DNA of 36,609 nucleotides from positions 1 to 36,609 of IMG/VR virus record IMGVR_UViG_3300036944_000576, one strand, 5' to 3'. This DNA comes from a virus. Below the pieces are notes generated by a model. The model saw only the letters and a list, made by a program, of their open reading frames with translations. It was not told the DNA's origin and did no database searches. A program made the position numbers and the translations under genes. This document shows, piece by piece, positions 12,542 to 26,728 of this stretch; within the stretch, counting starts at the first letter, position 1, and each line of letters begins with the position of its first letter.

Positions 12542-12555
12542 TCAAGAAAACAGAC

Positions 12556-12584
12556 TTGAACATTTGCCAAAATCAGATTATAAT
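12556..12584 (+). promoter_or_regulatory. Rightward sigma70 promoter
   Basis: TTGAAC, 17 bp, TATAAT, 21 bases before the next start codon. Confidence 0.8.
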
Positions 12585-12605
12585 ATAGTCTGATTTGGAG
12601 ATATT

Positions 12606-12806
12606 ATGGCAGGCTATTCACGCGACTTTTTAATTAGTGCTTTTATGTCACGATACATTACCTGCACGAAACTTACGATCGAGCAGTTGGTACGGCTAGA
12701 ACAAATGGCAAGCGATCTTTATGATCTAGTTGGTCGCGACAGCTTTCGTAGTTATGCCAGCTTAGATGCTGATGCAATTCGAGTCTATAAAAATAGTGTT
12801 GACTGA
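12606..12806 (+). CDS. Small phage protein of unknown function
   Basis: A 66-residue helical protein with a GGAG ribosome site close upstream and its own promoter. No motif is recognised. Its end overlaps the -35 of the next promoter. Confidence 0.65.
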   Translation: MAGYSRDFLISAFMSRYITCTKLTIEQLVRLEQMASDLYDLVGRDSFRSYASLDADAIRVYKNSVD

Positions 12807-12827
12807 TCGAGGTCTTTACTGTATAAT
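12799..12827 (+). promoter_or_regulatory. Rightward sigma70 promoter of the main tRNA array
   Basis: TTGACT, 17 bp, TATAAT. RNA would begin near 12835 and first run through about 200 nt of structured non-coding sequence before the first tRNA. Confidence 0.8.
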
Positions 12828-12834
12828 TAGTTCT

Positions 12835-13031
12835 TTAAATAATAAAATTAGTCCCGCTTATGCTTGCCCAATACATCCCTAGTATCGGGCAGCACACTTC
12901 AAGCGAGGCGGGTGTAAGCCCCGTCACTAAAATAAACGTCCCGCCGCTGTAGAGGGAATGTTTGGATTTCTAAGATACAGCAGGATTGTCGTCCTGGTTC
13001 AAGACTGTATGTGGACACTTTAGGGAGTGTC
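12835..13031 (+). ncRNA. Structured non-coding leader of the tRNA array
   Basis: No gene is visible. TTAGT near 12847 can pair with ACTAA near 12927, enclosing CCCGC/GCGGG and GCCC/GGGC helices. A second part has GCTGTA/TACAGC, AGGA/TCCT and GACACT/AGTGTC hairpins. The compact nested folding argues for a real RNA, but I cannot assign it to a known family. Confidence 0.45.
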
Positions 13032-13104
13032 TCCATATATTAGCGTAATTGATGAACAATGGCCCCGATTGCGGCCTAAGTAGTTGATTATGCTAATATA
13101 TGGA
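13032..13104 (+). repeat. Long-stem hairpin element 1
   Basis: Arms 13032-13049 and 13087-13104 pair over 18 bp with one G-U. The 37-nt interior contains GGCCCCGATTGCGGCC, itself a short hairpin. The 3' arm overlaps the first three bases of the next tRNA. Shares the CCATATATTAGC-type arm with elements at 18637 and 19822. Confidence 0.75.
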
Positions 13105-13282
13105 TCGGTAGCTTAACTTGGTTAAAGCACAAAAGCCGGCATACCTATCCTTCAGACAATGGTCACCGTGTTAACCGCACGCAATGCGAGTTCTATGTGA
13201 CTAGTTCTGGCCTGAATTCGAATACATGGTTATGGGAAGGTATAATTTTAGGAAGCAGGTTCGAGTCCTGCCCGATCCACCA
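13102..13282 (+). tRNA. tRNA with about 105-nt insertion in the anticodon arm (isotype unclear)
   Basis: The acceptor (GGATCGG/CCGATCC plus ACCA), D-arm (GCTT...AAGC) and T-arm (GCAGG-TTCGAGT-CCTGC) are normal, but the ends are 181 nt apart. The anticodon stem (AAAA/TTTT) is interrupted by a structured insert with helices ATACC/GGTAT, TTCAG/CTGAA, GTCAC/GTGAC and CGTG/CACG. It may be an intron, too short for a normal group I intron, or a broken tRNA. The anticodon cannot be fixed without knowing the junctions. Confidence 0.6.
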
Positions 13283-13377
13283 TATTCAAGTAACCTGGCG
13301 TGGCCAGCGGGGAAGAGGCTATGGCTCCGGTGAATGTCCATCTTTTCCTGTCGCAGTAACAGGTTATTTAAATATGG
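13280..13377 (+). repeat. Long-stem hairpin element 2
   Basis: Arms 13280-13297 and 13360-13377 pair over 18 bp with one mismatch and one G-U. The 5' arm begins on the CCA of the preceding tRNA. The 62-nt GC-richer interior could fold further. No T-run follows, so it is not a simple terminator. Confidence 0.75.
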
Positions 13378-13393
13378 CTTTAAAATTTTACAC

Positions 13394-13422
13394 TTGTGGT
13401 AAAATGCTTTTTCAAGTATAAT
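13394..13422 (+). promoter_or_regulatory. Rightward sigma70 promoter
   Basis: TTGTGG, 17 bp, TATAAT. It drives the tRNAs from 13499. The leader contains two small hairpins, ACTGGA/TCCAGT (13439-13463) and GTTAGTTT/AAACTAAC (13471-13494), the latter ending just before the tRNA. Confidence 0.7.
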
Positions 13423-13498
13423 TATTATTCTTTGTTGCACTGGACAGTTATGCGTATTCCAGTAAGTTTTGTTAGTTTGCTTCAATAAACTAACATAT

Positions 13499-13572
13499 CA
13501 GGGCGTAGTGAAATGGCATCACCCGACGTTTGGGACGTTGAAGCGCAAGTTCGATTCTTGCCGCCTTGACCA
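13499..13572 (+). tRNA. tRNA-Pro (anticodon TGG)
   Basis: 74 nt with CCA. Acceptor CAGGGCG/CGCCTTG, anticodon loop TTTGGGA, T-loop TTCGATT. The CCA is the first part of the next long-stem element. Confidence 0.88.
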
Positions 13573-13754
13573 TTTTAGTTTGTATATTGCTAGATTCCGG
13601 TTCAGTCTCGGAGCTTTATGTACTTGAGACCTATATGTCCTAGGAAACTTGTAGGGTATGGTATGAATCTTGAAACAGGCTTGCGTCATGAACAAGATAA
13701 GTCAAGATCACGGTCTTAGCGGACTGGGTAGTAAACAGTATACAATCTAAAATG
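13570..13754 (+). repeat. Long-stem hairpin element 3, with 152-nt interior
   Basis: Arms 13570-13586 and 13739-13754 pair over 16 bp with one T-T mismatch. The interior holds further helices (GTCTC/GAGAC; ATCTTGA/TCAAGAT). This is the largest member of the family and fills the whole gap between tRNA-Pro and tRNA-Leu. Confidence 0.7.
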
Positions 13755-13761
13755 AACTTAT

Positions 13762-13845
13762 GCGTTGGTGGTGGAATGGTATACACGCTGGTCTTAGAAG
13801 CCAGTGCCGAAAGGATTGAGAGTTCGAGTCTCTCTCGACGCACCA
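13762..13845 (+). tRNA. tRNA-Leu (anticodon TAG)
   Basis: 84 nt with CCA and the long variable arm of leucine tRNAs. Anticodon loop CTTAGAA. Confidence 0.92.
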
Positions 13846-13851
13846 CAATTT

Positions 13852-13926
13852 GGGCTGTTAGTGATAATGGTAGCACGGGGCCTTTGCAAGGCTCGGGCGG
13901 GAGTTCGATTCTCCCACGGTCCACCA
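13852..13926 (+). tRNA. tRNA-Ala (anticodon TGC)
   Basis: 75 nt with CCA. Acceptor GGGCTGT/ACGGTCC includes the G3-U70 pair that marks alanine tRNAs. Anticodon loop TTTGCAA. Confidence 0.93.
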
Positions 13927-13936
13927 AAAGGAAACT

Positions 13937-14059
13937 ATGAAAACACGAAAACCTCGTAACCACGTCGCACTAGCTTTACAGAAGCGTGGTGGCAGTGGTT
14001 CACATACAAAAAGCCACAAACAGCTTCGTGGCCAATGGAAGCGTAGCATGGACGTATAA
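13937..14059 (+). CDS. Short basic phage protein inside the tRNA array
   Basis: 40 residues from ATG 13937, preceded by an AAAGGA ribosome site. MKTRKPRNHVALALQKRGGS followed by a Lys/His/Arg-rich helix resembles small basic proteins that recur in other tailed phages. It is strongly positively charged, so nucleic-acid binding is plausible. The stop codon lies 10 bases inside tRNA-Lys. Confidence 0.75.
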   Translation: MKTRKPRNHVALALQKRGGSGSHTKSHKQLRGQWKRSMDV

Positions 14060-14124
14060 CTTAACGGCTAAAGTAGCTGGCTTTTAACCAGCAAATCAGA
14101 GTTCGATTCTCTGTGCGTCTACCA
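14050..14124 (+). tRNA. tRNA-Lys (anticodon TTT)
   Basis: 75 nt with CCA. Anticodon arm GCTGG-CTTTTAA-CCAGC; T-arm AGAG-TTCGATT-CTCT. The first acceptor pair is G-U. The 5' end overlaps the preceding small gene. Confidence 0.9.
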
Positions 14125-14233
14125 TATAAAAACACATTAACTTGCAGGACTGCCGATTCGGTCTGTTACTCCTAGCTGTAACCTATCGTGAGAAATAGGG
14201 GAGTGCAATTCTCATAGTGTGTTTCTATATGGT
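14121..14233 (+). repeat. Long-stem hairpin element 4
   Basis: Arms 14121-14136 and 14218-14233 pair over 16 bp with one mismatch, and the 5' arm includes the CCA of tRNA-Lys. The 81-nt interior has several short helices (TTAC/GTAA, CTAT/ATAG). It ends six bases before the next tRNA. Confidence 0.72.
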
Positions 14234-14239
14234 AATTAT

Positions 14240-14331
14240 GCCCCTATAGTTTAATGGTAAAACGGCGGATTTATATCCCGTAAGCAACAGATAATTGGTT
14301 CATCTGGGTTCGAGCCCCGGTGGGGGTACCA
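14240..14331 (+). tRNA. tRNA with anticodon TAT (Ile?) and extended variable arm
   Basis: 92 nt with CCA. The D-arm (GTTT/AAAC), T-arm (CTGGG-TTCGAGC-CCCGG) and acceptor are sound. The anticodon loop TTTATAT gives TAT, with an A-C mismatch closing the stem. A 22-nt variable region with an AGAT/ATCT stem is unusual for isoleucine. It could be a leucine-like tRNA with an altered loop. Confidence 0.65.
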
Positions 14332-14340
14332 AATAAATTC

Positions 14341-14428
14341 GGGACATTACTCAAGTGGTTACGAGAGCGGTTTGCTAAACCGTCGTTGAGAAATCGGCGC
14401 ACAGGTTCGAATCCTGTATGTCCCGCCA
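14341..14428 (+). tRNA. tRNA-Ser (anticodon GCT)
   Basis: 88 nt with CCA and long variable arm; anticodon loop TTGCTAA, acceptor GGGACAT/ATGTCCC, discriminator G as in serine tRNAs. Confidence 0.93.
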
Positions 14429-14442
14429 AACAAAGGAAATTT

Positions 14443-14679
14443 ATGCCTTGCATGAAATGTGCTAATGGTAAGTATAAGTATGGCGAAGGTGGCCGTTGCC
14501 AGTTTGATACGCTAGGTGCGTGTAAAGCAGCAGCAGCTGCAATTCATGCTAAACCTAAGAACAATGCAGCAGGTAGTGTAATGGAAGCACCCGACTCTGT
14601 GAAAGTCGTAGACCGAGATCGAAACTCGACTGTCTGCCCAAAGGATAGCCATGACGCAATTACAAGAGCTACTAGATAA
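14443..14679 (+). CDS. Small cysteine-containing phage protein, reading through tRNA-His
   Basis: 78 residues from ATG 14443 (GGAAAT upstream). MPCMKCANGKYKYGEGGRCQ then FDTLGACKAAAAAIHAKP is a short Cys-rich type found in many phages, where it normally ends near residue 40. Here the frame continues through the whole tRNA-His gene (14569-14640) and into the next gene. The last 35 residues are therefore probably an accidental tail created by insertion or formation of the tRNA. Confidence 0.65.
   Translation: MPCMKCANGKYKYGEGGRCQFDTLGACKAAAAAIHAKPKNNAAGSVMEAPDSVKVVDRDRNSTVCPKDSHDAITRATR
14569..14640 (+). tRNA. tRNA-His (anticodon GTG)
   Basis: 72 nt with CCA and discriminator C. Acceptor GCAGGTA/TGTCTGC, anticodon arm CGACT-CTGTGAA-AGTCG. 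The base before it is A, so the extra G-1 typical of histidine tRNA is not encoded. It is embedded in the reading frame of the gene at 14443. Confidence 0.85.
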
Positions 14680-14863
14680 AGAAGCTAGTTTAGCTAATCG
14701 TCGTGACCTCGTGCACAAACAAATTAAAGTGCTACGTGGTGAAGATCCTCCAGTATGTTGGGGAAATGACGACTGTTCAACACTTGTGCTGTCACATTGC
14801 CCTTGGCGCATTGATTGTGGTAGCTATGCCGCACAGCATTGGCAAGAAAACAGTACCTGGTAA
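14651..14863 (+). CDS. Small phage protein with C-terminal cysteines
   Basis: 70 residues from ATG 14651. The N-terminal half is a predicted coiled coil (LQELLDKEASLANRRDLVHK). The C-terminal half has Cys at CWGNDDC, HCPW and DCGS, which might bind zinc. It overlaps the previous frame by 29 bases and ends two bases before tRNA-Phe. The function is unknown. Confidence 0.7.
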   Translation: MTQLQELLDKEASLANRRDLVHKQIKVLRGEDPPVCWGNDDCSTLVLSHCPWRIDCGSYAAQHWQENSTW

Positions 14864-14865
14864 AA

Positions 14866-14941
14866 GCCGATGTAGCTCAGGTGGTAGAGCAGCGGATTGA
14901 AAATCCGTGTGTCACTGGTTCGACCCCAGTCTTCGGCACCA
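14866..14941 (+). tRNA. tRNA-Phe (anticodon GAA)
   Basis: 76 nt with CCA. Anticodon loop TTGAAAA, D-arm TAGCTCAGGTGGTAGAGC, T-loop TTCGACC. Confidence 0.95.
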
Positions 14942-14957
14942 CCTATAAACAAACAAC

Positions 14958-15032
14958 ACTCCGGTCGTCTAGTGGCTAGGACGCCAGCCTTTCAAGTTGG
15001 AGAAGCGGGATCGAAACCCGTTCGGAGTACCA
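14958..15032 (+). tRNA. tRNA-Glu (anticodon TTC)
   Basis: 75 nt with CCA. Acceptor ACTCCGG/TCGGAGT, anticodon arm CCAGC-CTTTCAA-GTTGG. Confidence 0.9.
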
Positions 15033-15095
15033 AGTTTATGAGTTCGTCTAGAAACCGGTAAATTGTAGTTTAGTCTACAAGCTCGTAATTATTAT

Positions 15096-15170
15096 ACTGG
15101 GGTAGCTCAGCGGCAGAGCACTCGCTTGATAAGCGATAGGTCGAGGTCTCGGAATCCTCCCTCAGTACCA
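15096..15170 (+). tRNA. tRNA-Ile (anticodon GAT), unusual T-arm
   Basis: 75 nt with CCA. Acceptor ACTGGGG/CCTCAGT, anticodon loop TTGATAA. The T-stem closes with a T-T mismatch and the loop reads CTCGGAA rather than TTCGAAT. A small TTGTAG/CTACAA hairpin lies in the 63-nt gap upstream. Confidence 0.85.
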
Positions 15171-15241
15171 AATATCACACGGCCTAGATGCCGCAAGTAG
15201 GTGCAAGGCCTACACTTTACACAACACACATAGGAATTATT

Positions 15242-15469
15242 ATGAATCCATTTGAAATCCGTGCTCAACTAATTGAGCAGGCTGCTGACTTCCTAAAGCG
15301 TCAGCACGAAATCAACACTGAGTTTGCTAAGAAAACATTCGACCAACTTGTATCTCAAGGCCAAAAAGTTCAAGCAGATTACAAACAGTACGTGCCAGCC
15401 ATGTACAGCTTTGAAGATGTAATTGCACAGGCTGAAAAGCTATATGGGTTTGTCAAAAATGCTAAGTAA
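15242..15469 (+). CDS. Small helical phage protein, phasin-like appearance
   Basis: 75 residues from ATG 15242. It is helical throughout (NPFEIRAQLIEQAADFLKRQ and on) with no transmembrane segment or known motif. The amphipathic helices recall small phasin-like proteins, which is weak inference. It is followed by a coupled short gene. Confidence 0.7.
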   Translation: MNPFEIRAQLIEQAADFLKRQHEINTEFAKKTFDQLVSQGQKVQADYKQYVPAMYSFEDVIAQAEKLYGFVKNAK

Positions 15470-15569
15470 AGTAAGCGAGCTTTTCTCCACTTTTATTGAA
15501 GCAATGCAGTCAGCCAAAGCTGCCCGTGCAAAGTATTATGTTAAATACTATGGCGGAGGTTGGGAATGA
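15459..15569 (+). CDS. Short phage protein of unknown function
   Basis: 36 residues from ATG 15459, overlapping the previous gene by 11 bases. MLSKVSELFSTFIEAMQSAK then AARAKYYVKYYGGGWE: an amphipathic helix with an aromatic, glycine-rich end. Overlap with both neighbours supports it. Confidence 0.6.
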   Translation: MLSKVSELFSTFIEAMQSAKAARAKYYVKYYGGGWE

Positions 15570-15733
15570 TTCAAGAACTAATGGCCAGAGTGCTGGAGTT
15601 CTTTGACCCTAAACCGTACGGCTTGGAACAATTTATTCAAGAGGGTAATCCTCAAGATTATGGTGACCTGCAACGATTGGAACGTACTTGGTACCAACTA
15701 CAAAATCGTGGTTACTTTAATCAAACATTTTAA
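15566..15733 (+). CDS. Short phage protein of unknown function
   Basis: 55 residues from ATG 15566 (ATGA overlap). It contains FFDPKPYGL, encoded by the repeated 12-mer at 15605-15616, and ends in an aromatic-rich segment. The stop is immediately followed by the next tRNA. Confidence 0.65.
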   Translation: MIQELMARVLEFFDPKPYGLEQFIQEGNPQDYGDLQRLERTWYQLQNRGYFNQTF

Positions 15734-15802
15734 CGCGGGAAATCAGGTGATAGGTCAGTCTCATAAGCTCGGCCCAGAGGTTCGAATCCTTACCCGCAAC
15801 CA
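15734..15802 (+). tRNA. tRNA-Met, initiator-like ends but reduced body (anticodon CAT)
   Basis: 69 nt with CCA. The ends CGCGGG...CCCGCAACCA, with unpaired C1 and A72, are those of bacterial initiator tRNA, and the loop is CTCATAA. However the D-arm is shortened, the T/acceptor helix is one base short on the 3' side, and the three G-C pairs of the initiator anticodon stem are missing. It may be a diverged initiator tRNA or a decaying copy. Confidence 0.6.
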
Positions 15803-15887
15803 AATTGTAAAAGCACACGTGCCAGACTAGCTCGAGCTATCGGAGTGCTCCGACTATACAGGAAGATTGGCTCCTGTTATTACAATT
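15803..15887 (+). repeat. Hairpin element 5 after the initiator-like tRNA
   Basis: Closing stem AATTGTAA (15803-15810) with TTACAATT (15880-15887), 8 bp, starting right after CCA. The interior has CGGAG/CTCCG and ACAGGA/TCCTGT hairpins. A shorter stem than other members. Confidence 0.6.
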
Positions 15888-16138
15888 GCAGGCTTGTAAA
15901 CAAATTAATGCGTAAAGGCATTATCCTGCGTCCGCTGAAGCGAAAACAAGATGGGCTGCTCTCACGGGGTTAAAGTTTTCCTGACACAAAAATAACTATG
16001 TATCTGTTTACTTAAGGCTAAAGACTATGCCCCTATATGGAACTTAAACAGCGTCAATGTCTTCAGACACAACGAAATGTGTCGCCGGAGAATGTAACCG
16101 GCAACTATTTATTCAGCCAGAGAGTTTCTCTGGCTTTT
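15888..16138 (+). ncRNA. Structured non-coding region between tRNAs
   Basis: 251 bases without a gene. Helices visible: GTAAACA (15896-15902) with TGTTTAC (16005-16011) enclosing TAATGC/GCATTA; then GACACA/TGTGTC, GCCGG/CCGGC and, at the end, AGCCAGAGA/TCTCTGGCT followed by four T, which may be a weak terminator. At least one folded RNA is likely, but no family is recognised. Confidence 0.45.
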
Positions 16139-16213
16139 GGTTTTGTAGCACAGCGGTAGTGCACGGTCTTCATACGGCTTAGGTCAGTAGTTCGAATCTA
16201 CTCAAAACCACCA
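16139..16213 (+). tRNA. tRNA with anticodon CAT (Met or Ile2)
   Basis: 75 nt with CCA. Acceptor GGTTTTG/CAAAACC, T-arm GTAG-TTCGAAT-CTAC, loop TTCATAC. Whether it is elongator Met or an isoleucine tRNA needing lysidine at C34 cannot be told by eye; a clear elongator Met tRNA is present at 21844. Confidence 0.85.
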
Positions 16214-16217
16214 ACTT

Positions 16218-16292
16218 ATGTCCCTAGTGTAATTGGCAGCACTATAGTCTCCAAAACTATCAGTCACGGTTCGAGTCCGTGGGGGCGTGCCA
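16218..16292 (+). tRNA. tRNA-Trp (anticodon CCA)
   Basis: 75 nt. Acceptor ATGTCCC/GGGGCGT, anticodon arm ATAGT-CTCCAAA-ACTAT, discriminator G as expected for tryptophan. Confidence 0.9.
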
Positions 16293-16302
16293 AAACTTAA
16301 AT

Positions 16303-16331
16303 TTGATTTGTTTGCTAAATCTTGATATAAT
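16303..16331 (+). promoter_or_regulatory. Rightward sigma70 promoter
   Basis: TTGATT, 17 bp, TATAAT, about 25 bases before the next gene. Confidence 0.75.
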
Positions 16332-16355
16332 TATTCTTTACAGCAAGGAATAATC

Positions 16356-16568
16356 ATGAACGCATTAGATCAAATTGCTAAACCTCTTGTAGTTATGCCA
16401 GCATATGGCCGAGACTATAAAACTCGCAAAGATGTAATCCAAGCCTGGAAGTCTGGACAAGATTTCAAAATAGTTAATGGCCCTTACTGCTCTATCAGAG
16501 ATATTGCTAAGTTAGGTTGCAGTTCAGTTTGGATTGACTTAGTTACTTCAATGATAAGGGTTGAATAA
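16356..16568 (+). CDS. Small phage protein of unknown function
   Basis: 70 residues with an AAGGA ribosome site. KPLVVMPAYGRDYKTRKDVI then AWKSGQDFKIVNGPYCSIRD looks like a small conserved phage protein, in my memory common in phages of proteobacteria, but without known role. Confidence 0.75.
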   Translation: MNALDQIAKPLVVMPAYGRDYKTRKDVIQAWKSGQDFKIVNGPYCSIRDIAKLGCSSVWIDLVTSMIRVE

Positions 16569-16576
16569 ATTTAGAT

Positions 16577-16605
16577 TTGCCAGTGATTGCCAAATCGGGT
16601 ATAAT
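16577..16605 (+). promoter_or_regulatory. Rightward sigma70 promoter of tRNA-Tyr
   Basis: TTGCCA, 17 bp, TATAAT. The predicted start is about five bases before the tRNA. Confidence 0.75.
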
Positions 16606-16617
16606 TGTTCTTTAAAC

Positions 16618-16702
16618 GGAGAATCCGCCGCAATGGTGTGGCAGGGGATTGTAAATCCTCCAACTTAGGTTACGACAGGTTCGATCCCTGTATTCTCCAC
16701 CA
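16618..16702 (+). tRNA. tRNA-Tyr (anticodon GTA)
   Basis: 85 nt with CCA, acceptor GGAGAAT/ATTCTCC, anticodon loop TTGTAAA, and the long variable arm of bacterial tyrosine tRNAs. Confidence 0.93.
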
Positions 16703-16707
16703 ATATA

Positions 16708-16883
16708 TGAGCAAAAAGGGTAGCTCCCCTGGCATTGCTAACTCAATGCATAGCTCACCAATTAACCTAGTTAGAGGTTTGTATGATAAAAGTATTAGAC
16801 TGGATAAAAGAATCCAGAGAAGTAAGAACACAGCATCTAGACTTAGAGACATCCTGCGTAGAGCGAGGCGGAAACAGCACTAA
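16708..16883 (+). CDS. Small basic protein overlapping the HNH gene
   Basis: 58 residues from ATG 16708, ending in an Arg/Lys-rich helix. It overlaps the HNH frame for 101 bases. The start MSKKGSSPGIANSMHSSPIN looks like genuine phage coding sequence, so either two proteins overlap or one original gene has been frameshifted. Confidence 0.45.
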
Positions 16884-17115
16884 TCACAGAGGTGTTTTAG
16901 CAGAGTTTTTAGATTCTGATTTTCCCAAAGGCGTTGGGATTGACTTATGTCACGCTTGCCACAATGGAAACTGCTCGAACCCAAAACATATGTATTGGGG
17001 CACTAGAAAAGAGAACGTAGCCGATGCAAGATCTCAAGGTACTCATAAAAATCCCTTTGAAAATGCAGTTGCTAAATATGGTTATGAAAAAGCCTGTGAG
17101 ATGAATAAAAGATAA
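16783..17115 (+). CDS. HNH endonuclease (homing type)
   Basis: 110 residues. HACHNGNCSNPKHMYWGTRK matches the core of phage HNH nucleases (CHxCxxxxCxNPxHLxxGT), preceded by a helical DNA-binding part and followed by a short tail. Such proteins cut DNA and spread into tRNA or gene borders. It lies just downstream of tRNA-Tyr, a typical place. It lacks an obvious ribosome site. Confidence 0.75.
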   Translation: MIKVLDWIKESREVRTQHLDLETSCVERGGNSTNHRGVLAEFLDSDFPKGVGIDLCHACHNGNCSNPKHMYWGTRKENVADARSQGTHKNPFENAVAKYGYEKACEMNKR

Positions 17116-17116
17116 C

Positions 17117-17203
17117 GCGAGAGTGGTGGAACGGTATACACAGTAGACTTAAAATCTACCGCCTGTAATGGGCTTACGGGTTCGAGTCCCGTCTCTCGTA
17201 CCA
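17117..17203 (+). tRNA. tRNA-Leu (anticodon TAA)
   Basis: 87 nt with CCA and long variable arm. Anticodon arm GTAGA-CTTAAAA-TCTAC. The first acceptor pair is G-U. It starts right after the HNH stop codon. Confidence 0.92.
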
Positions 17204-17207
17204 GTTT

Positions 17208-17283
17208 GGGTCTAAAGTGTTCATGGACGCACACGGCACTGTCACTGCCGAAGAGTGGGGATCGTTACCCCCTAGACCCGCCA
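17208..17283 (+). tRNA. tRNA-Asp (anticodon GTC)
   Basis: 76 nt. Acceptor GGGTCTA/TAGACCC, anticodon arm CGGCA-CTGTCAC-TGCCG, discriminator G. The T-loop differs from the TTCGANN consensus. Confidence 0.85.
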
Positions 17284-17375
17284 AAACCTGCCTTAGGTCC
17301 GTGCCGTTCCGGTTAGAGCGTCCGTAACCCAATCGGTGACTACGACAATGTCACGCTGTATATCGTAAGCAGCAC
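17284..17375 (+). other. Structured spacer between tRNA-Asp and hairpin element 6
   Basis: No gene. Helices GGTTA/TAACC and GTGAC/GTCAC are visible, and GTCCGTGC near 17297 could pair with GCACGGAC inside the D-arm region of the following tRNA-Asn, an alternative fold that would compete with that tRNA. Confidence 0.4.
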
Positions 17376-17474
17376 TATTTAATACTAGCAAATTCATTGG
17401 CTATAGTGTGTAGGCACAGTTCCTTCCTGTGTTGAAGCTACCTGGAGATTGCGACCAGGTGCTAGTATTAAGTA
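17376..17474 (+). repeat. Long-stem hairpin element 6
   Basis: Arms 17376-17390 and 17460-17474 pair over 15 bp with one G-U; the core TTAATACTAGCA/TGCTAGTATTAA is perfect. The 69-nt interior contains CACAG/CTGTG and CCTGG/CCAGG hairpins. It ends two bases before tRNA-Asn. Confidence 0.7.
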
Positions 17475-17475
17475 T

Positions 17476-17554
17476 TCCGTAGAATCCGAGCTAGGTGCAC
17501 GGACTTGACTGTTAATCAATGACTAGACTGGTTCGAATCCAGTATACGGAGCCA
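17476..17554 (+). tRNA. tRNA-Asn (anticodon GTT)
   Basis: 79 nt. D-stem TCCG/CGGA, anticodon loop CTGTTAA, T-arm ACTGG-TTCGAAT-CCAGT, discriminator G and CCA encoded. Confidence 0.9.
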
Positions 17555-17564
17555 CATATTTTGT

Positions 17565-17638
17565 TCGGGGATGGTGTAATGGCAACACAACACACTTTGA
17601 CTGTGTCGTTCTAGGTTCGAGCCCTAGTCCCCGTGCCA
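17565..17638 (+). tRNA. tRNA-Gln (anticodon TTG)
   Basis: 74 nt. Anticodon arm CACA-CTTTGAC-TGTG; T-arm CTAGG-TTCGAGC-CCTAG; discriminator G. The 1-72 pair is weak (T-T), as is common in glutamine tRNAs. Confidence 0.9.
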
Positions 17639-17644
17639 CAATTT

Positions 17645-17721
17645 GGGTCTATAGCACAACTGGATAATGCACCGGTTTACGAAGCCGTGAAGTGAGAGTT
17701 CAAATCTTTCTAGACCCACCA
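17645..17721 (+). tRNA. tRNA-Arg (anticodon ACG)
   Basis: 77 nt with CCA. Acceptor GGGTCTA/TAGACCC, anticodon loop TTACGAA. The A34 would need deamination to inosine by host TadA to read CGU, CGC and CGA. Confidence 0.88.
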
Positions 17722-17733
17722 AATAAGACTACT

Positions 17734-18204
17734 ATGCGTCAATTTAACATCAACGAAGTAAAAGACTATATTCGTAATTCTAGTCCAGAAACCAAGATTT
17801 ATCTTGGTGCGGATTCGGAACGTGTTAAAATTGGCGACAAATGGTACGCAGACTATACACTGGCTGTTGTAGTACACATTGACGGCAATCATGGTTGCAA
17901 AATCTTTGGTGATGTTCAGCGCGAACGCGACTGGGACCAAAAAGCCAATAAACCATCAATGCGACTAATGCAAGAAGTTTATAAAGTTAGTGACCTGTTT
18001 CATGAATTAGCGGACGTCTTAGAAGACCGTCACGTTGAAGTTCACCTAGATATTAACCCCAGTGAACGCTATAAAAGTTCAGCGGTTGTACAGCAAGCTG
18101 TTGGATATATAAAAGGCACTTGTAACATTGACGCTCAGGTTAAACCCCGAGCATTTGCTGCAAGTTATGCAGCTGACCGATTAAAATTTGTACTGGCTAA
18201 CTAA
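17734..18204 (+). CDS. RNase H-like fold protein (DUF458/YkuK type)
   Basis: 156 residues from ATG 17734. IYLGADSERVKIGDKWYADY, TLAVVVHIDGNHGCKIFGD and EVHLDINPS carry the Asp-containing strands of a ribonuclease H-like fold, as in the DUF458/YkuK family. The nuclease activity of that family is not established as far as I know. It is coupled to the next small gene, with one base between. Confidence 0.75.
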   Translation: MRQFNINEVKDYIRNSSPETKIYLGADSERVKIGDKWYADYTLAVVVHIDGNHGCKIFGDVQRERDWDQKANKPSMRLMQEVYKVSDLFHELADVLEDRHVEVHLDINPSERYKSSAVVQQAVGYIKGTCNIDAQVKPRAFAASYAADRLKFVLAN

Positions 18205-18205
18205 A

Positions 18206-18409
18206 ATGACTGACCGATTCGATCTAGAACAAAATATCATGCAATGCTGGAATGTTTGTGATGACATTCAGTTGTACTTGGATATGTATGATGACATGGA
18301 CGAAGATCAGCGTATGAATTACCTGATCGGACTCAAGCAAATGTATCAAATGAAATTTGAGCGTTGCTTTAGTAGTTTTGAAACCTGTGTTCGTACAAAA
18401 CAAGTTTAA
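18206..18409 (+). CDS. Small acidic phage protein of unknown function
   Basis: 67 residues from ATG 18206. Very acidic helical segment (DDIQLYLDMYDDMDEDQ) and two cysteines near the end. The stop lies just before tRNA-Cys. Confidence 0.7.
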   Translation: MTDRFDLEQNIMQCWNVCDDIQLYLDMYDDMDEDQRMNYLIGLKQMYQMKFERCFSSFETCVRTKQV

Positions 18410-18410
18410 T

Positions 18411-18487
18411 GTCGGTGTGTAGCCGAATGGCTAGGCCACGGATTGCAAATCCGTTTTATGCAGGTTCAAGTCCTGTCACCGACTCCA
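18411..18487 (+). tRNA. tRNA-Cys (anticodon GCA)
   Basis: 77 nt. Acceptor GTCGGTG/CACCGAC, discriminator T as in cysteine tRNAs, anticodon loop TTGCAAA, CCA encoded. The 79-nt gap after it has possible TTCC/GGAA and TGAC/GTCA pairing but no gene. Confidence 0.93.
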
Positions 18488-18566
18488 ATCAGTCAGTTCC
18501 CAGATGACTTTAAAAATGTGGGCTGCTCAAGGGCCAACGCCAAGAGCATAAGGTCACAGTTGGAAA

Positions 18567-18640
18567 GCCCTATTAGTATAATGGTATTACACCTGTTTTG
18601 TAATCAGGTTACGGCAGTTCGATTCTGTCATGGGGCACCA
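18567..18640 (+). tRNA. tRNA-Thr (anticodon TGT)
   Basis: 74 nt with CCA. Acceptor GCCCTAT/ATGGGGC, anticodon loop TTTGTAA. The CCA is part of the next long-stem element. Confidence 0.9.
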
Positions 18641-18706
18641 TATTTTAGCACATTGAACCACACAGGGCAACCAGAGCCGGACTGTCGTAGTGTGCTAAAA
18701 TATGGT
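18637..18706 (+). repeat. Long-stem hairpin element 7, before the tmRNA
   Basis: Perfect 16-bp arms (18637-18652, 18691-18706) enclosing 38 nt. It starts on the CCA of tRNA-Thr and ends where the tmRNA acceptor piece begins. Confidence 0.8.
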
Positions 18707-18765
18707 TGTATGAAGCAGACCCAAAAGAGTTCGACACGCGGGGGCAGTGCCCGCCAGGTCCACCA
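18707..18765 (+). ncRNA. tmRNA acceptor piece (3' part, encoded first)
   Basis: Contains the P2 3' strand, T-arm and acceptor 3' strand ending in CCA at 18763-18765. The 5' end is inferred from the end of hairpin element 7 at 18706. Confidence 0.8.
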
Positions 18766-18831
18766 TAAACATATTAGTGGTCTTGAAACCCACAATTCAT
18801 AGTTAAGTCTATGTGCTAGTATGTTTTTGAT

Positions 18832-19017
18832 GGGCCTGACACAGGATCGACCGAGCTAAGAGTAGCAAAGTAGACAACTCGGCAATGTAGAAGCCGTAGG
18901 GTTGGGGATTCCTGGCCGCAGAAGCAAAACAAAAATAACTGCAAACGATAACACGTACGCATTAGCAGCCTAAACGCCGCTTAGGGTTTCGCCAGTTCCT
19001 CGTAACAGAATACTGGC
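18832..19017 (+). ncRNA. tmRNA coding piece (5' part, encoded second)
   Basis: It starts with the acceptor 5' strand and ends with the GCCAGT/ACTGGC hairpin (3' end near 19017), just before the next long-stem element. The A-rich stretch before the tag (AAGCAAAACAAAAATAACT) matches the single-stranded resume region of known tmRNAs. Confidence 0.8.
18941..18973 (+). other. tmRNA tag reading frame, ANDNTYALAA plus stop
   Basis: Ten codons from GCA 18941 and TAA 18971-18973. With the alanine carried by tmRNA the appended tag is AANDNTYALAA. The ALAA end is the ClpX recognition signal in E. coli, and AND at the start matches the SspB/ClpA-contact part of known tags. Confidence 0.92.
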
Positions 19018-19111
19018 ACTATATTTTAATACTCTGGTCAGCACTGTGAGAAGCGCAGATCGACAAGACTAGAACACGGTTTGAATCCAAGCTAGAGTAT
19101 TAAAATATAGT
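19018..19111 (+). repeat. Long-stem hairpin element 8, after the tmRNA
   Basis: Perfect 18-bp arms (19018-19035 and 19094-19111) enclosing 58 nt. The interior contains a tRNA T-arm-like GGTTTGAATCC and further short pairings. It lies between the tmRNA and the ClpP-like gene and has no T-run. Confidence 0.8.
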
Positions 19112-19121
19112 AAAGGAACTT

Positions 19122-19724
19122 ATGCGCTCTAACCTTCTCGACCCTAAATTGTTTGAATCCAACAAGTTTACAAATAACTTTTCAAAGCCAGTAGCACAAG
19201 TTCATGAGTTTTATCTAACAGGTGAAATTTCAGATGCTGAAAACTACATTGAGTGGTTTGACATTATTCGTAATGCTAGTCCAGTAGATACCATTCGTAT
19301 TTACATTAACTCGCCAGGTGGTGATCTATTCACCACACTGCAATTCCTGCGAGTAATGGCCGAAAGCGAAGCTAATATTGTTACTTCAGTAGAAGGTGCT
19401 TGCATGAGTGCAGCAACCATGATTTTTCTACACGGTCATACCCAAGAAGTCACTCCACACAGCCTGTTTATGTTTCACGATTACTCGTCAGGAACATTTG
19501 GCAAAGGTGGCGAGCAATACGACCAGATTCAATTTGAACGTGGCTGGTCACGTAAGTTCATGTCGGAAGTATATGCAGACTTTTTAACGCCTGCTGAAAT
19601 TGAGTCGATGATGCACAACAAAGACATTTGGATGGGTTCAGAAGAAGTTGTTGAACGACTAACTGCACTGCAAGCCGAGCGTGAAGCTGAAGCGGCAGCC
19701 GCTGAAGCAGAAGCTACAGAATAA
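19122..19724 (+). CDS. clpP: ClpP-like ATP-dependent protease proteolytic subunit
   Basis: 200 residues, the usual ClpP length. IYINSPGGDLFTTLQFL, VEGACMSAATMIFLHG (catalytic Ser about 96) and PHSLFMFHDYS (catalytic His about 119) follow the ClpP/crotonase serine protease order; a downstream Asp completes the triad. The C-terminus is a Glu/Ala-rich helix not seen in bacterial ClpP. It follows the tmRNA directly, so it may degrade tagged proteins with a host ClpX or ClpA. A head-maturation protease role is the alternative, but no capsid genes are nearby. An AAAGGA ribosome site is present. Confidence 0.88.
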   Translation: MRSNLLDPKLFESNKFTNNFSKPVAQVHEFYLTGEISDAENYIEWFDIIRNASPVDTIRIYINSPGGDLFTTLQFLRVMAESEANIVTSVEGACMSAATMIFLHGHTQEVTPHSLFMFHDYSSGTFGKGGEQYDQIQFERGWSRKFMSEVYADFLTPAEIESMMHNKDIWMGSEEVVERLTALQAEREAEAAAAEAEATE

Positions 19725-19732
19725 TAAACAGT

Positions 19733-19824
19733 GGGTGGTAATGCAGCGGGGTTGGTCCTGCGACTGGCCTTGAAAACCAGGTTCTCGGAAACGGGATGGG
19801 GTTCGACTCCTCTGCCACCCGCCA
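19733..19824 (+). tRNA. tRNA-Ser (anticodon TGA)
   Basis: 92 nt. Acceptor GGGTGGT/GCCACCC, long variable arm, anticodon loop CTTGAAA, discriminator G, CCA encoded. Confidence 0.92.
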
Positions 19825-19894
19825 TATATTAGCACACTCCGCTGATGTGTAAAAACTGGGGCTGCTTGCTAGCAAAGCGTGTGCTAATATATGG
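19822..19894 (+). repeat. Long-stem hairpin element 9
   Basis: Perfect 16-bp arms (19822-19837 and 19879-19894) enclosing 41 nt; the 5' arm begins on the CCA of tRNA-Ser, and the 3' arm covers the start codon of the next gene, so the stem could block its translation in long transcripts. Confidence 0.78.
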
Positions 19895-20052
19895 CAAAGA
19901 AATTATGGACACTATGGGCAAATGCCCTCGGCGCCAAAGCCGGAAAAAACAACAGCGAAGCTGACGTGATAGCAATTATCAGAACACTGATAATTCTTAG
20001 TTATATAGTCACTAATTGCTTTATTATTGCAGGTGTATGGAGGCATTGGTAG
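19891..20052 (+). CDS. Small membrane protein
   Basis: 53 residues from ATG 19891. MAKKLWTLWANALGAKAGKN is followed by SEADVIAIIRTLIILSYIVT and a hydrophobic end: one transmembrane helix (about 28-49). Proteins with this WANALG and EADV-AIIRT pattern are found in other tailed phages, function unknown. The start codon lies inside the hairpin arm. Confidence 0.75.
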   Translation: MAKKLWTLWANALGAKAGKNNSEADVIAIIRTLIILSYIVTNCFIIAGVWRHW

Positions 20053-20348
20053 TGGCTCTACAGTTCAATAAATTAAAGAACCCTAAACTTGGGCTAACAG
20101 ACACTATTACATTTGGTAAACTAGCCGGATGCCGTATTTGTGATGTTGCACAAGATCACTACGAGTACTTGATCTGGGCTGAAAAGTCAGGCTTTGTTAA
20201 GTACCAACCCGAAGTAGTTAGTCTAATTCAAGAACAAGCTAATTTTGCCCGTTGGACAATTCACCAAGCAGAAGAAGTCGATCCTTACAAAGACGATTTT
20301 GATCTGCCAAAACCAGTCATCTTTGACGATGACGATGTACCATTTTAA
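20037..20348 (+). CDS. DUF3820-like protein with SSB-type acidic tail
   Basis: 103 residues from ATG 20037, overlapping the preceding gene by 16 bases; a TTG further upstream is also possible. LTDTITFGKLAGCRICDVAQ and DHYEYLIWAEKSGF match the short DUF3820 pattern (FGKYKG...L.DIP..Y+.WL). The last residues FDDDDVPF copy the C-terminal tip of bacterial SSB (DDDIPF), the docking site for repair and replication proteins. This tip on a DUF3820 protein suggests it competes for, or recruits, SSB partners. Confidence 0.75.
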   Translation: MEALVVALQFNKLKNPKLGLTDTITFGKLAGCRICDVAQDHYEYLIWAEKSGFVKYQPEVVSLIQEQANFARWTIHQAEEVDPYKDDFDLPKPVIFDDDDVPF

Positions 20349-20423
20349 GCAGGATTAATTCAGTGGTAGAATGTCTCGTTGCCAACGAGAATGTCGTCGG
20401 TTCGAACCCGACATCCTGCTCCA
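20349..20423 (+). tRNA. tRNA-Gly (anticodon GCC)
   Basis: 75 nt. Acceptor GCAGGAT/ATCCTGC, anticodon arm CTCG-TTGCCAA-CGAG, discriminator T, CCA encoded. Confidence 0.93.
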
Positions 20424-20433
20424 GATAATTATT

Positions 20434-20643
20434 ATGTACCGAATATACTACACAGACCCTAAAGCAGTGCATCTTCCAAAGTATCAAGACGTTGGCGAGT
20501 TAAGCAACGCACTAGAATGTTGCGAGTTTTTGCGTAAGGTCAACATGATCTACGTGGTTATGGTTTCGGACTACCAAGACATGATAGGCAAACCAGGTGC
20601 TAGTAGCCCAGATGCCAACTATGTACCACAAATGTTAAATTAA
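20434..20643 (+). CDS. Small phage protein of unknown function
   Basis: 69 residues from ATG 20434. MYRIYYTDPKAVHLPKYQDV and later VNMIYVVMVSDYQDMIGKPG suggest a small beta-alpha-beta domain, as in several short phage proteins with no assigned role. It lies between two glycine tRNA genes. Confidence 0.7.
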   Translation: MYRIYYTDPKAVHLPKYQDVGELSNALECCEFLRKVNMIYVVMVSDYQDMIGKPGASSPDANYVPQMLN

Positions 20644-20647
20644 TAGT

Positions 20648-20721
20648 GCGGGGTTAGTTTAGTGGCAAAATGCTATCCTTCCAAGTTAGAGTTGCGAGTT
20701 CGATTCTCGCACCCCGCTCCA
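20648..20721 (+). tRNA. tRNA-Gly (anticodon TCC)
   Basis: 74 nt. Acceptor GCGGGGT/ACCCCGC, anticodon loop CTTCCAA, discriminator T, CCA encoded. Confidence 0.93.
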
Positions 20722-20723
20722 GT

Positions 20724-20798
20724 GCATCCTTAGCTCAGTGGTAGAGCGTCTCGCTTACACCGAGAGGGTCGGCAGTTCGAAACTGTCAGGATGTACCA
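20724..20798 (+). tRNA. tRNA-Val (anticodon TAC)
   Basis: 75 nt. Acceptor GCATCCT/AGGATGT, anticodon loop CTTACAC, T-loop TTCGAAA, CCA encoded. Confidence 0.92.
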
Positions 20799-20806
20799 AA
20801 ATTCAC

Positions 20807-20835
20807 TTGAAATCTGTCCCTGAATACGGTATAAT
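20807..20835 (+). promoter_or_regulatory. Rightward sigma70 promoter of the rubrerythrin operon
   Basis: TTGAAA, 17 bp, TATAAT, about 40 bases upstream of the start codon. Confidence 0.8.
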
Positions 20836-20873
20836 AATTACTGTTTCGGGGATTATTTATTTATAACAAAACA

Positions 20874-21323
20874 ATGTCAATAACATTAGAAAACTTAGAA
20901 GGTGCCTTGGCCGGAGAGTCTATGGCACACGCAAAGTATCTGTACTTTGCACGTATTGCGCGAGCCGAGGGCTTTGAAGATGTGGCACAACACTTTGAGC
21001 ACACAGCAGCACAAGAACTAAAGCACGCTTGGGGTCACCTAGAGCTGCTGATTGGCACGCCTAGTACACGAGAGTGCCTAGAAAAAGCCATCGAAGGTGA
21101 AACATACGAGTACACAACAATGTACCCTCAGTTTGAGCGTCAGGCAAAAGCCGAGAAAAACATTGAAGCTGTTAAGGAGTTCAACGAACAAGGTCGTGAA
21201 AGCCTACAACACGCCCAAGAATTTCAAGCCGTACTAGATAAAGCTGCAAAACGCTTTGCTGCACTAAAGCGTGTAGAGCAACGTCATGCACAAGCATATC
21301 AACAAGTATTAGAAAGCATTTAA
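20874..21323 (+). CDS. Rubrerythrin-like diiron protein
   Basis: 149 residues, all helical. The first pair of helices (LAGESMAHAKYLYFARIARA, then FEHTAAQELKHAWGHLELL) and the second pair (EGETYEYTTMYPQFERQAKA, then EFNEQGRESLQHAQEFQ) carry the Glu and ExxH ligands of a rubrerythrin diiron site. The usual C-terminal rubredoxin domain is missing but is supplied by the next gene. Rubrerythrins reduce hydrogen peroxide. The phage pair could protect replication from peroxide. Confidence 0.88.
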   Translation: MSITLENLEGALAGESMAHAKYLYFARIARAEGFEDVAQHFEHTAAQELKHAWGHLELLIGTPSTRECLEKAIEGETYEYTTMYPQFERQAKAEKNIEAVKEFNEQGRESLQHAQEFQAVLDKAAKRFAALKRVEQRHAQAYQQVLESI

Positions 21324-21457
21324 TGACACACATTTGCATTGTATGTGACCATGTTCACGACCCAGAAATCGAAGGCGCCTGGGATACTCTACCAGATGAC
21401 TTTGAGTGCCCTGAGTGCGGCGTAGGCAAAGAAGACTATGTAGAATTTGAGGACTAA
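21323..21457 (+). CDS. Rubredoxin
   Basis: 44 residues from ATG 21323. HICIVCDHVHDP near the start and FECPECGVGKEDY near the end give the two CxxC knuckles that hold one iron, with the usual spacing; EIEGAWDTLPDDF matches the P-x-D-F segment of rubredoxins. It shares a base with the rubrerythrin stop, so it is the expected electron donor. Slightly shorter than typical rubredoxins (about 52). Confidence 0.92.
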   Translation: MTHICIVCDHVHDPEIEGAWDTLPDDFECPECGVGKEDYVEFED

Positions 21458-21850
21458 ATGCTAGAGTGTTTAATCTTAGGTGATAGTATTGCTGTTGGTA
21501 TCGCACAACACAGACCAGAGTGCGCTGTGTATGCCCAAGTAGGTATTACTAGTCGCGGCTGGAACAACAAGTATCTGGTTAAAAAACCAGATGCTAAAAC
21601 AACAGTGGTTAGCCTAGGTACAAACGACTATAGCGAAACAGCTACATTCAGAGAGCTTTATGCGTTAAGGCAAACATTACCTAGTAAGGTAGTATGGATT
21701 CTTCCAGCAAATGGTGTAGACCGACAAACTGCTGTGGTAAAAATTGCTCAGATGTATAACGATGCTACAGTGGTTATACCCGAGCTATCCAAAGATAAAA
21801 TACACCCCACAGCCCGTGGGTATCGTGAATTAGCAGAACAAGTGCGCTGA
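21458..21850 (+). CDS. SGNH/GDSL hydrolase-like protein
   Basis: 130 residues. The blocks are ILGDSIAVG (block I Ser), AQVGITSRG (block II Gly), SLGTNDYSE (block III Asn) and DKIHPTARG (block V Asp/His), so the catalytic set is complete. The family contains esterases, lipases and deacetylases of sugars. Here it could modify cell surface or phage-related glycans; the substrate is unknown. The start follows the rubredoxin stop with no gap, and its last seven bases lie in tRNA-Met. Confidence 0.85.
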   Translation: MLECLILGDSIAVGIAQHRPECAVYAQVGITSRGWNNKYLVKKPDAKTTVVSLGTNDYSETATFRELYALRQTLPSKVVWILPANGVDRQTAVVKIAQMYNDATVVIPELSKDKIHPTARGYRELAEQVR

Positions 21851-21920
21851 TAGCTCAGTTGGTTAGAGCAGTGAACTCATAATTCATTGGTCACAGGTTC
21901 AAGTCCTGTTCGGCGTACCA
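21844..21920 (+). tRNA. tRNA-Met, elongator (anticodon CAT)
   Basis: 77 nt with CCA. D-arm TAGCTCAGTTGGTTAGAGC, anticodon arm GTGAA-CTCATAA-TTCAT, T-arm ACAGG-TTCAAGT-CCTGT. The 5' end overlaps the stop of the SGNH gene. Confidence 0.93.
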
Positions 21921-21930
21921 ATACCACACC

Positions 21931-21960
21931 AAACCCACCATCAAGGTGGGTTTTTTGTTT
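21931..21960 (+). terminator. Rho-independent terminator ending the tRNA array
   Basis: A strong stem AAACCCACC/GGTGGGTTT with a five-base loop, followed by a T-run. Confidence 0.9.
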
Positions 21961-24939: not shown

Positions 24940-25890
24940 ATGAACAAAATTACACAATATTTAGACTCAGCATCAAAAGCATACTACGCAGGCTGGCCCA
25001 TTATCACGGACGAGCAGTTTGATCGCTTGGCTGAGTCAGTTGGTTACAATGCTGTGGGCGCTAAGCAAAACTCCAAAACCGAGCGTCATTTGTTTCAAAT
25101 GTACTCACTACAGAAGTATTACGAAGATGAAGGTACCAAACCACTCCAAGATGTTAGATCGATTGCTACAAGTATTAAGTTGGACGGGGCAGCTCTCAGC
25201 CTACTTTATGTTGATGGTAATCTTGTTCGAGTTCTTACCCGTGGGGATGGTGTAGAAGGTCAAATTGTAACTGACAAGTTCCTGGGCAATCCTATTGTTC
25301 CACAAACTGTCCCATTCCAAGGTGTATACCAGATCACTGGCGAGATTGTTGCTCCAATCAATATTGAAAATGCTCGCAACTACGCAGCAGGCGCTCTTAA
25401 CTTAAAAGATGTAGCAGAATTTCAATCACGAGCACTATCGTTCTTTGCATACGGTGTTCAGCCTAGCTTAGCATCTACATTTAACGAAGACCTATCCATG
25501 CTTAAAATGGCAGGTTTTGGAGTAATCAATGAAGCAGACTTGGACAAAATATTTCCCTGCGACGGCATCGTGTTCCGAGTCAATGACAACAAGACCTTCT
25601 ACGAGATGGGTTACACAGCAAAGCATCCTCGCGGTGCATACGCTAAAAAAGAACGAGCAGCCCATGTTGAAACCCGTTTACTCGACGTCGAGTGGCAAGT
25701 CGGCAAGTCTGGTAAGGTTACTCCTGTTGCTATTCTTGAGCCTGTTCTTGTTGGTGATGCCTTGGTATCTAGGGCTACCCTTAACAATCCTGGCTTTATC
25801 GAAATGCTAGACCTGCGAATTGGTGACACAGTGGCGGTTATCCGAGCTGGAGAAATCATTCCTTGTATTCTACACAAAGTCGATGCTTAA
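24940..25890 (+). CDS. ligA: NAD+-dependent DNA ligase, catalytic half (adenylation and OB domains)
   Basis: 316 residues. After a short N-terminal Ia-like part (AYYAGWPIITDEQFDRL), the nucleotidyltransferase motif I is TSIKLDGAALS with the AMP-accepting Lys near 80. Motifs RGDGVEG (III), GEIV, CDGIVFRV (IV) and AYAKK (V) follow, then the OB fold WQVGKSGKVTPVAILEPV to RAGEIIP. The zinc finger, HhH and BRCT parts are missing and are encoded by the next gene. Phage T5 has the same two-gene ligase. It seals nicks in replication and repair. Confidence 0.93.
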   Translation: MNKITQYLDSASKAYYAGWPIITDEQFDRLAESVGYNAVGAKQNSKTERHLFQMYSLQKYYEDEGTKPLQDVRSIATSIKLDGAALSLLYVDGNLVRVLTRGDGVEGQIVTDKFLGNPIVPQTVPFQGVYQITGEIVAPINIENARNYAAGALNLKDVAEFQSRALSFFAYGVQPSLASTFNEDLSMLKMAGFGVINEADLDKIFPCDGIVFRVNDNKTFYEMGYTAKHPRGAYAKKERAAHVETRLLDVEWQVGKSGKVTPVAILEPVLVGDALVSRATLNNPGFIEMLDLRIGDTVAVIRAGEIIPCILHKVDA

Positions 25891-25907
25891 GCAGTAAAAA
25901 TTTACAC

Positions 25908-25936
25908 TTGTCAAACCATACCTAATCAGATATAAT
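25908..25936 (+). promoter_or_regulatory. Rightward sigma70 promoter between the ligase halves
   Basis: TTGTCA, 17 bp, TATAAT. It gives the second ligase gene and the D5-like gene their own transcription. Confidence 0.78.
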
Positions 25937-25960
25937 ATAGTCTACAAAGCAATAAACAAC

Positions 25961-26728
25961 ATGAAGATCCAAATCCCCACAACCTGCCCTTGCTGTGATT
26001 ACAAACTTGAATTGGTCAACGATCAATTGTTTTGTCGCAACACGGCTTGCGGTGCTCAGCTTGGTAAAAAAGTTGAACATTTTTGCAAGACACTAGGCAT
26101 CAAAGGCATGGGGCCTAAGAGTGTTGAAAAACTAAATCTACAAGACTTAACTGAGCTATTTTACTTAGACCCAGATTCAGTAATCGAAGCACTTGGCAGT
26201 GAGAAAACTGCACACAAGTTACTAGATGAAATTGATCGTGCTAAGAGTGCTGATTTAGCAACTGTGTTGGCTAGTTTTAGTATTCCACTTGTTGGCAACA
26301 CAGCTTCACAAAAGATTTGTAGCGTTGTAGACCATATCAGCCAAATCAATTACGAAACTTGCAAAGCAGCAGGTCTAGGTGACAAAGTTACCGAAAACTT
26401 AGTTGGCTGGCTACAAACAGATTTCCCTGACTTACAAGAGTTTTTGCCGTTCTCTTTTAAGTCCAACCGCAATTCCACATCAAACAGTAATAATAATTCC
26501 AAGACTGTTTGTATCACTGGAAAGTTATCTTCTTATAAAACTAAAGCAGAAGCCTACAAAGCACTAGAAGAGGCTGGTTTTAAAGTTACAGAAACTGTAA
26601 CCAAAGCCACTGACATTTTAGTTGATGAAGAAGATAAAGCTAGTACAAAACGCAAAAAAGCCGAGTCCCTTGGCATCCAAATCATAACAAACCTAAATAC
26701 TTTCTTGAAAGAAAATACAAATGACTGA
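25961..26728 (+). CDS. ligB: NAD+-dependent DNA ligase, C-terminal half (Zn finger, HhH, BRCT)
   Basis: 255 residues. TTCPCCDYKLELVNDQLFCR with a following NTACG gives the four-cysteine zinc finger. Residues about 40-160 are helix-hairpin-helix repeats (LGIKGMGPKSVEKL). The last 80 (KTVCITGKLSSYKTKAEAYK and on) form a BRCT domain. It has no catalytic Lys, so it must work with the protein at 24940 as a second subunit. It overlaps the D5-like gene by 8 bases. The symbol follows the T5 usage as I recall it. Confidence 0.9.
   Translation: MKIQIPTTCPCCDYKLELVNDQLFCRNTACGAQLGKKVEHFCKTLGIKGMGPKSVEKLNLQDLTELFYLDPDSVIEALGSEKTAHKLLDEIDRAKSADLATVLASFSIPLVGNTASQKICSVVDHISQINYETCKAAGLGDKVTENLVGWLQTDFPDLQEFLPFSFKSNRNSTSNSNNNSKTVCITGKLSSYKTKAEAYKALEEAGFKVTETVTKATDILVDEEDKASTKRKKAESLGIQIITNLNTFLKENTND

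Follow-up and report, generated by a model that had tools for sequence, protein, structure and literature searches.

We describe a rubrerythrin–rubredoxin gene pair, conserved among phages, which with a probability of roughly 70% was acquired from a host and serves as an auxiliary module encoding a two-protein NAD(P)H:H2O2 reductase. The pair was analyzed on a 36.6-kb virus record, the whole of which is hereafter called the window.

The transcription unit and its carrier phage

The unit lies on the plus strand and starts with a sigma-70-type promoter, TTGAAA-17-TATAAT (20807..20835), matching the consensus at 11 of 12 positions; the same pattern occurs at three sites in the window, compared to 0.04 expected. 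It is followed by the gene of a single-domain rubrerythrin of 149 aa without a rubredoxin domain (20874..21323), with no Shine-Dalgarno sequence visible upstream of its ATG, and by that of a short rubredoxin of 44 aa (21323..21457), the two ORFs sharing one base, the A of TAATG. The ORF of an SGNH hydrolase (130 aa; 21458..21850) begins on the base right after the rubredoxin stop, and a tRNA-Met gene with a CAT anticodon (21844..21920) overlaps its end by 7 nt. With an intrinsic terminator at 21931..21953, promoter and terminator bound a single unit composed of rubrerythrin, rubredoxin, SGNH hydrolase and tRNA-Met. A preliminary description of this DNA had proposed the base-sharing pair, the single strong promoter and the gapless SGNH gene, all of which are borne out by the ORFs and the promoter match.

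Both members of the pair exceed the curated Pfam cut-offs, the rubrerythrin for PF02915 (65.7 bits, cut-off 22.8, E = 7.3e-18) and the rubredoxin for PF00301 (34.7 bits, cut-off 23, E = 1.8e-8). The cut-offs of the NCBIfam equivalogs were not reached, either by the rubrerythrin (NF045767, two-domain rubrerythrin; 66.9 bits versus 200, for a model of 194 residues that is longer than the part matched) or by the rubredoxin (NF045768; 33.9 bits versus 90), and PHROGs holds no family for either protein. The rubredoxin displays two CxxC pairs, and its four cysteines are invariant in 18 aligned sequences.

The SGNH hydrolase, below the Pfam cut-off by sequence, is identified from its AlphaFold model (pLDDT 92.7), which matches the SGNH catalytic domain of OatA (E = 1.8e-6), and from the catalytic residues S10, G29, N56, D113 and H116 (GDS, Gly, GxND and DxxH blocks), invariant in 18 homologues. 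It directly follows the rubredoxin in about 22–24 of the best 80 rubrerythrin loci, while the pair lies directly upstream in only about 10 of the 80 closest SGNH loci. These counts bear on whether the three proteins form one pathway in which the esterase acts with the redox pair: the zero gap in the window, the shared promoter and terminator and the recurrence of the arrangement are in its favor, but most pairs have no adjoining SGNH gene and few SGNH loci have the pair, and we consider such a pathway very improbable. An obligatory partnership was rejected on the same counts. The SGNH hydrolase is an optional neighbor, or passenger, in the same transcript and outside the conserved module; its place in the operon, as first described, thus holds for the window but for only about 24 of 80 loci. 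Dps-like proteins are encoded in two phage contigs with an SGNH relative (L232:4274-4708 and L269:3683-4141).

The window also encodes a DnaB helicase, a PolI-type polymerase, a primase and an NAD-dependent DNA ligase split across two ORFs (24940-26728), and its nearest matches are 110- to 130-kb phages of Vibrio, Salmonella, Escherichia and Aeromonas. The replication genes and nearest matches point to a fragment of a T5-like phage, the T5 label being based on the ligase, which is split in T5 as well, and the kinship of the gene pair leads us to guess at a beta- or gammaproteobacterial host. The rubrerythrin unit sits within a tRNA-rich region: the window holds 24 tRNA genes, dispersed among small ORFs (12466-21920), and a permuted tmRNA gene (18673-19064; Rfam RF04321, 1.1e-18) with the tag ANDNTYALAA, adjoined by the gene of a ClpP-like ATP-dependent protease (19122-19724). 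ARAGORN flagged tmRNAs in several relatives (e.g. L004, L025, L037, L055, L056 and L059).

Spread among phages and bacterial origin of the pair

Relatives of the rubrerythrin are encoded by 296 viral stretches. A rubredoxin lies directly downstream in 79 of the best 80 viral rubrerythrin loci, its four-cysteine ORF starting from −15 to +16 nt relative to the rubrerythrin stop; the one exception is a contig that breaks off at that stop. The reciprocal search retrieved at least 585 rubredoxin loci, and the rubrerythrin is directly upstream in all of the best 80, the rubredoxin never being alone among these. Note that the two sets overlap and that each was drawn from the top of its similarity ranking, leaving divergent relatives under-sampled. 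Chance adjacency was rejected on these counts (79/80 and 80/80), and the pair is a conserved module, as the phage survey proposed in the preliminary description finds. That description had also doubted that the pair was a common phage feature. This stands for the 50,697 catalogued phage records, none of which carries the pair, but not for the viral stretches counted above; a rubrerythrin match is present in only eight of the catalogued records, always below 60% identity, and none of these eight phages is among the matches of the window's rubredoxin.

The constancy of the pair also weighs on the possibility that the main electron acceptor of the rubredoxin is some other enzyme of host or phage, for instance an oxygenase or, among di-iron proteins, ribonucleotide reductase, with the rubrerythrin being secondary. 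Rubredoxins serve many partners, and 7 of 20 records encode the small subunit of a class I ribonucleotide reductase; however, no NrdB was seen in the other 13, the window included, and the phage rubredoxin is always accompanied by a rubrerythrin in its best 80 loci, so that we hold this option to be quite improbable. We likewise rejected the idea that the pair is tied to a phage ribonucleotide reductase sensitive to oxygen (NrdD in 0/20 records, class I NrdB in 7/20).

T4-type clamp-loader or RegA genes are found at 37 of the 80 loci, genes shared with the window at 13, and both at none. Since no locus has both gene types and the tree requires two type changes, the module, present in what appear to be T5-like and T4-like phages, has probably moved between phage lineages.

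The closest cellular relatives of the rubrerythrin are proteobacterial (Gallionellales, Nitrosomonadales and Comamonadaceae; 54–61% identity). This variant occurs in 30 of 369 genomes of the relatives' class, scores well apart from the common B. pseudomallei-type rubrerythrin, and has a full-length rubredoxin immediately downstream in 39 of 39 distinct bacterial loci. In the four bacterial loci analyzed in detail (L084:2936-6363, L307, L308 and L309), the pair stands beside an OxyR-type regulator (match to 4x6g, 5e-109) and a rubredoxin reductase with a rubredoxin-binding domain (PF18113; match to the P. aeruginosa rubredoxin reductase 2v3a, 6e-125). Of 48 bacterial stretches retrieved, 33 carry OxyR and 41 the reductase, in a sample in which some genomes count twice and most stretches have only 1.5 kb of flank; most of the 15 stretches in which OxyR was unseen have short flanks. 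Neither OxyR nor rubredoxin reductase was found in 244 phage loci, and a search for a reductase elsewhere in the phage, covering 16 records of which many are fragmentary, turned up no Pyr_redox_2 protein. The tree groups the phage rubrerythrins into a single clade (100/100) nested among the bacterial homologues, with a stem of 0.82. From this nesting, the bacterial OxyR/reductase neighborhood and its absence from the 244 phage loci, the history as sampled would be a single capture in which regulator and reductase were not kept, followed by shortening of the rubredoxin and spread among phages. The CxxC pairs are 20 residues apart in the phage rubredoxin and 29 in its bacterial partner (one bacterial sequence counted), the intervening loop being about 9 residues shorter in the phage protein.

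Descent from bacterial genes is also what would be seen with host DNA misplaced in viral contigs or with a decaying, functionless passenger. We find this scarcely credible: an identical rubrerythrin lies on a 73-kb contig together with genes for terminase, portal, protease-head and major tail proteins, RegA and clamp-loader genes are present at the T4-like loci, and selection is strong. Purifying selection acts on both genes, with median dN/dS values of 0.083 (rubrerythrin, 360 pairs) and 0.168 (rubredoxin, 425 pairs). Host contamination itself is refuted, since the contigs also carry phage structural genes. Overall, the structural genes of the 73-kb contig and the nested clade indicate that the pair is descended from cellular genes and resides on a phage genome.

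Fold and putative metal site of the phage rubrerythrin

The structure prediction suggested at the outset gives a rubrerythrin fold for the phage protein (pLDDT 94.6), with an rmsd of 1.3 Å over 126 residues to the rubrerythrin 9onr and about 1.4–1.6 Å over 126–127 residues to the B. pseudomallei rubrerythrin 4di0 (1.4 Å) and sulerythrin 1j30. Residues 1–128 superpose on the rubrerythrins of B. pseudomallei, P. furiosus and C. difficile and on sulerythrin, and did not superpose on that of D. vulgaris (about 14 Å). The best Foldseek and VIA matches are rubrerythrins, ahead of ferritins.

Residues E15, E48, H51, E76, E79, H113, E135 and H138 are invariant in 81/81 phage rubrerythrins. The canonical helix-D glutamate position is occupied by Ser110 in all 81, directly preceded by E109 in 80 of them, and the bacterial homologues share this Ser110-type pattern. 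The question of incomplete metal ligands, raised in the preliminary description, thus receives a divided answer, E15, E48, H51, E76, E79 and H113 being kept and the helix-D glutamate being replaced. With Ser110 throughout at this position, the metal site may differ from the canonical one. In the AlphaFold model, helix D has double length (residues 97–148). Its first segment (residues 97–122; 21162..21239, plus strand) contains E109, S110 and H113, and the second (residues 123–148; 21240..21317, plus strand) repeats the canonical motif FxxLxxxExxHAxxY, with a second ExxH (E135/H138). In column shuffles, whose scores are also compatible with convergence of ligand helices since a comparison of helix B with helix D likewise scored, the z-scores were 5.9 for the second segment versus canonical helix D, 4.0 for the first versus canonical and 4.4 between the two segments, and no other register tested scored as well. 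A repeat of helix D is therefore apparent, and because of Ser110 at the ligand glutamate and the second ExxH on the repeat, the putative metal site is unusual.

We tentatively suggest, as a possibility that we doubt more than we favor, that helix D was tandemly duplicated, that the first copy lost its ligand glutamate and that the second, in a domain-swapped dimer, supplies E135/H138 to the neighboring bundle. This would apply to the whole family, bacterial and phage, with a geometry that we infer; each di-iron site would then be made of three chain segments from two subunits, a new rubrerythrin-site architecture spread among phages.

The ligand set, unlike that of canonical rubrerythrins, could also fit a protein mainly devoted to iron handling, a ferroxidase of the ferritin/Dps kind for which electrons from the rubredoxin would mobilize iron rather than reduce peroxide. 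The ferritin-like fold, with a weak PF00210 match, and a Dps gene in the operon of two bacterial stretches (same genome; L084) are in line with this role; the fold, however, matches rubrerythrins before ferritins, and the bacterial operons keep OxyR and rubredoxin reductase, as fits H2O2 reduction, which leaves iron handling unlikely as the main function.

Proposed peroxide reduction and comparison with known systems

For the two-protein peroxide reductase, which we favor, the working cycle would be as follows. Upon infection, the phage's own promoter would express the rubrerythrin–rubredoxin pair, free of OxyR control; the rubredoxin reductase of the host (or a ferredoxin or NorW-type reductase) would use NAD(P)H to reduce the phage rubredoxin, and this in turn would reduce the di-iron site of the rubrerythrin, where H2O2 would be converted to water. 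Peroxide levels in the host cell, be it aerobic or microaerobic, would thereby be held down while the phage replicates. The reductase step is proposed because a rubredoxin reductase is present in the bacterial gene neighborhood, and the peroxide step because of the biochemistry of the family, including ferriperoxin. The initial view of a peroxide-reducing pair lacking only its reductase gains support from the bacterial relatives, whose pair is mostly found beside the OxyR and reductase genes that the phage loci do not show. The partial literature searched yielded no paper that links rubrerythrin with both OxyR and rubredoxin reductase.

Group 5, “cyanobacterial-type” (Cardenas 2016; PMC5114695), likewise includes proteobacterial rubrerythrins that lack a rubredoxin domain and differ from the aerobic type; the covered part of the paper mentions neither a separate neighboring rubredoxin gene, nor OxyR, nor phages. 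Kinship with this group would fit by the missing domain and the proteobacterial relatives. The 29-residue CxxC spacing of the bacterial partner counts as “long-spaced” in the terms of that paper, whereas the 20-residue spacing of the phage rubredoxin fits neither of its classes. The B. pseudomallei rubrerythrin 4di0 and sulerythrin 1j30, of the aerobic-type group 4, have the same fold and also lack the rubredoxin domain, but they have a glutamate in place of Ser110, a longer B–C linker and no second helix-D segment; the phage rubrerythrins fall outside group 4, across a 100/100 branch from the B. pseudomallei type. The P. furiosus rubrerythrin 1nnq, described in a cited title as a rubredoxin-dependent peroxidase, has a short B–C linker as in the phage protein, aligns without gaps over residues 3–126 and matches it in fold at an rmsd of 2.0 Å, but its own C-terminal rubredoxin domain takes the place of the helical extension of the phage protein. 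In Hydrogenobacter thermophilus, ferriperoxin, which has been proven to be an NADPH-dependent peroxidase (PMC3317640), also lacks a rubredoxin domain and receives electrons from a separate partner, as the phage rubrerythrin is predicted to do; that partner is a ferredoxin:NADPH reductase instead of a neighboring rubredoxin, and the system is cellular, not phage-borne.

Among phages, lone rubrerythrins occur in Pelagibacter phage Mosig (43% identical, with no annotated rubredoxin among its neighbors) and in vOTUs from silage and mouse gut, in papers that do not mention a rubredoxin. Vibriophages J26 and Virtus have lone rubredoxin-fold proteins, that of J26 being a proposed aid against oxidative stress; no rubrerythrin partner is mentioned, and neither protein is among the matches of the window's rubredoxin. 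In the literature searched, with partial coverage, only such lone phage genes were found and a phage-borne pair is undescribed. Lone phage rubrerythrins were thus already known as viral auxiliary genes, and within that literature the paired rubrerythrin–rubredoxin module is new. It is found in hundreds of uncultured phage contigs, in at least two phage types, trimmed to what would be of use to a phage; should it function as we infer, infection of these hosts would regularly call for control of H2O2.
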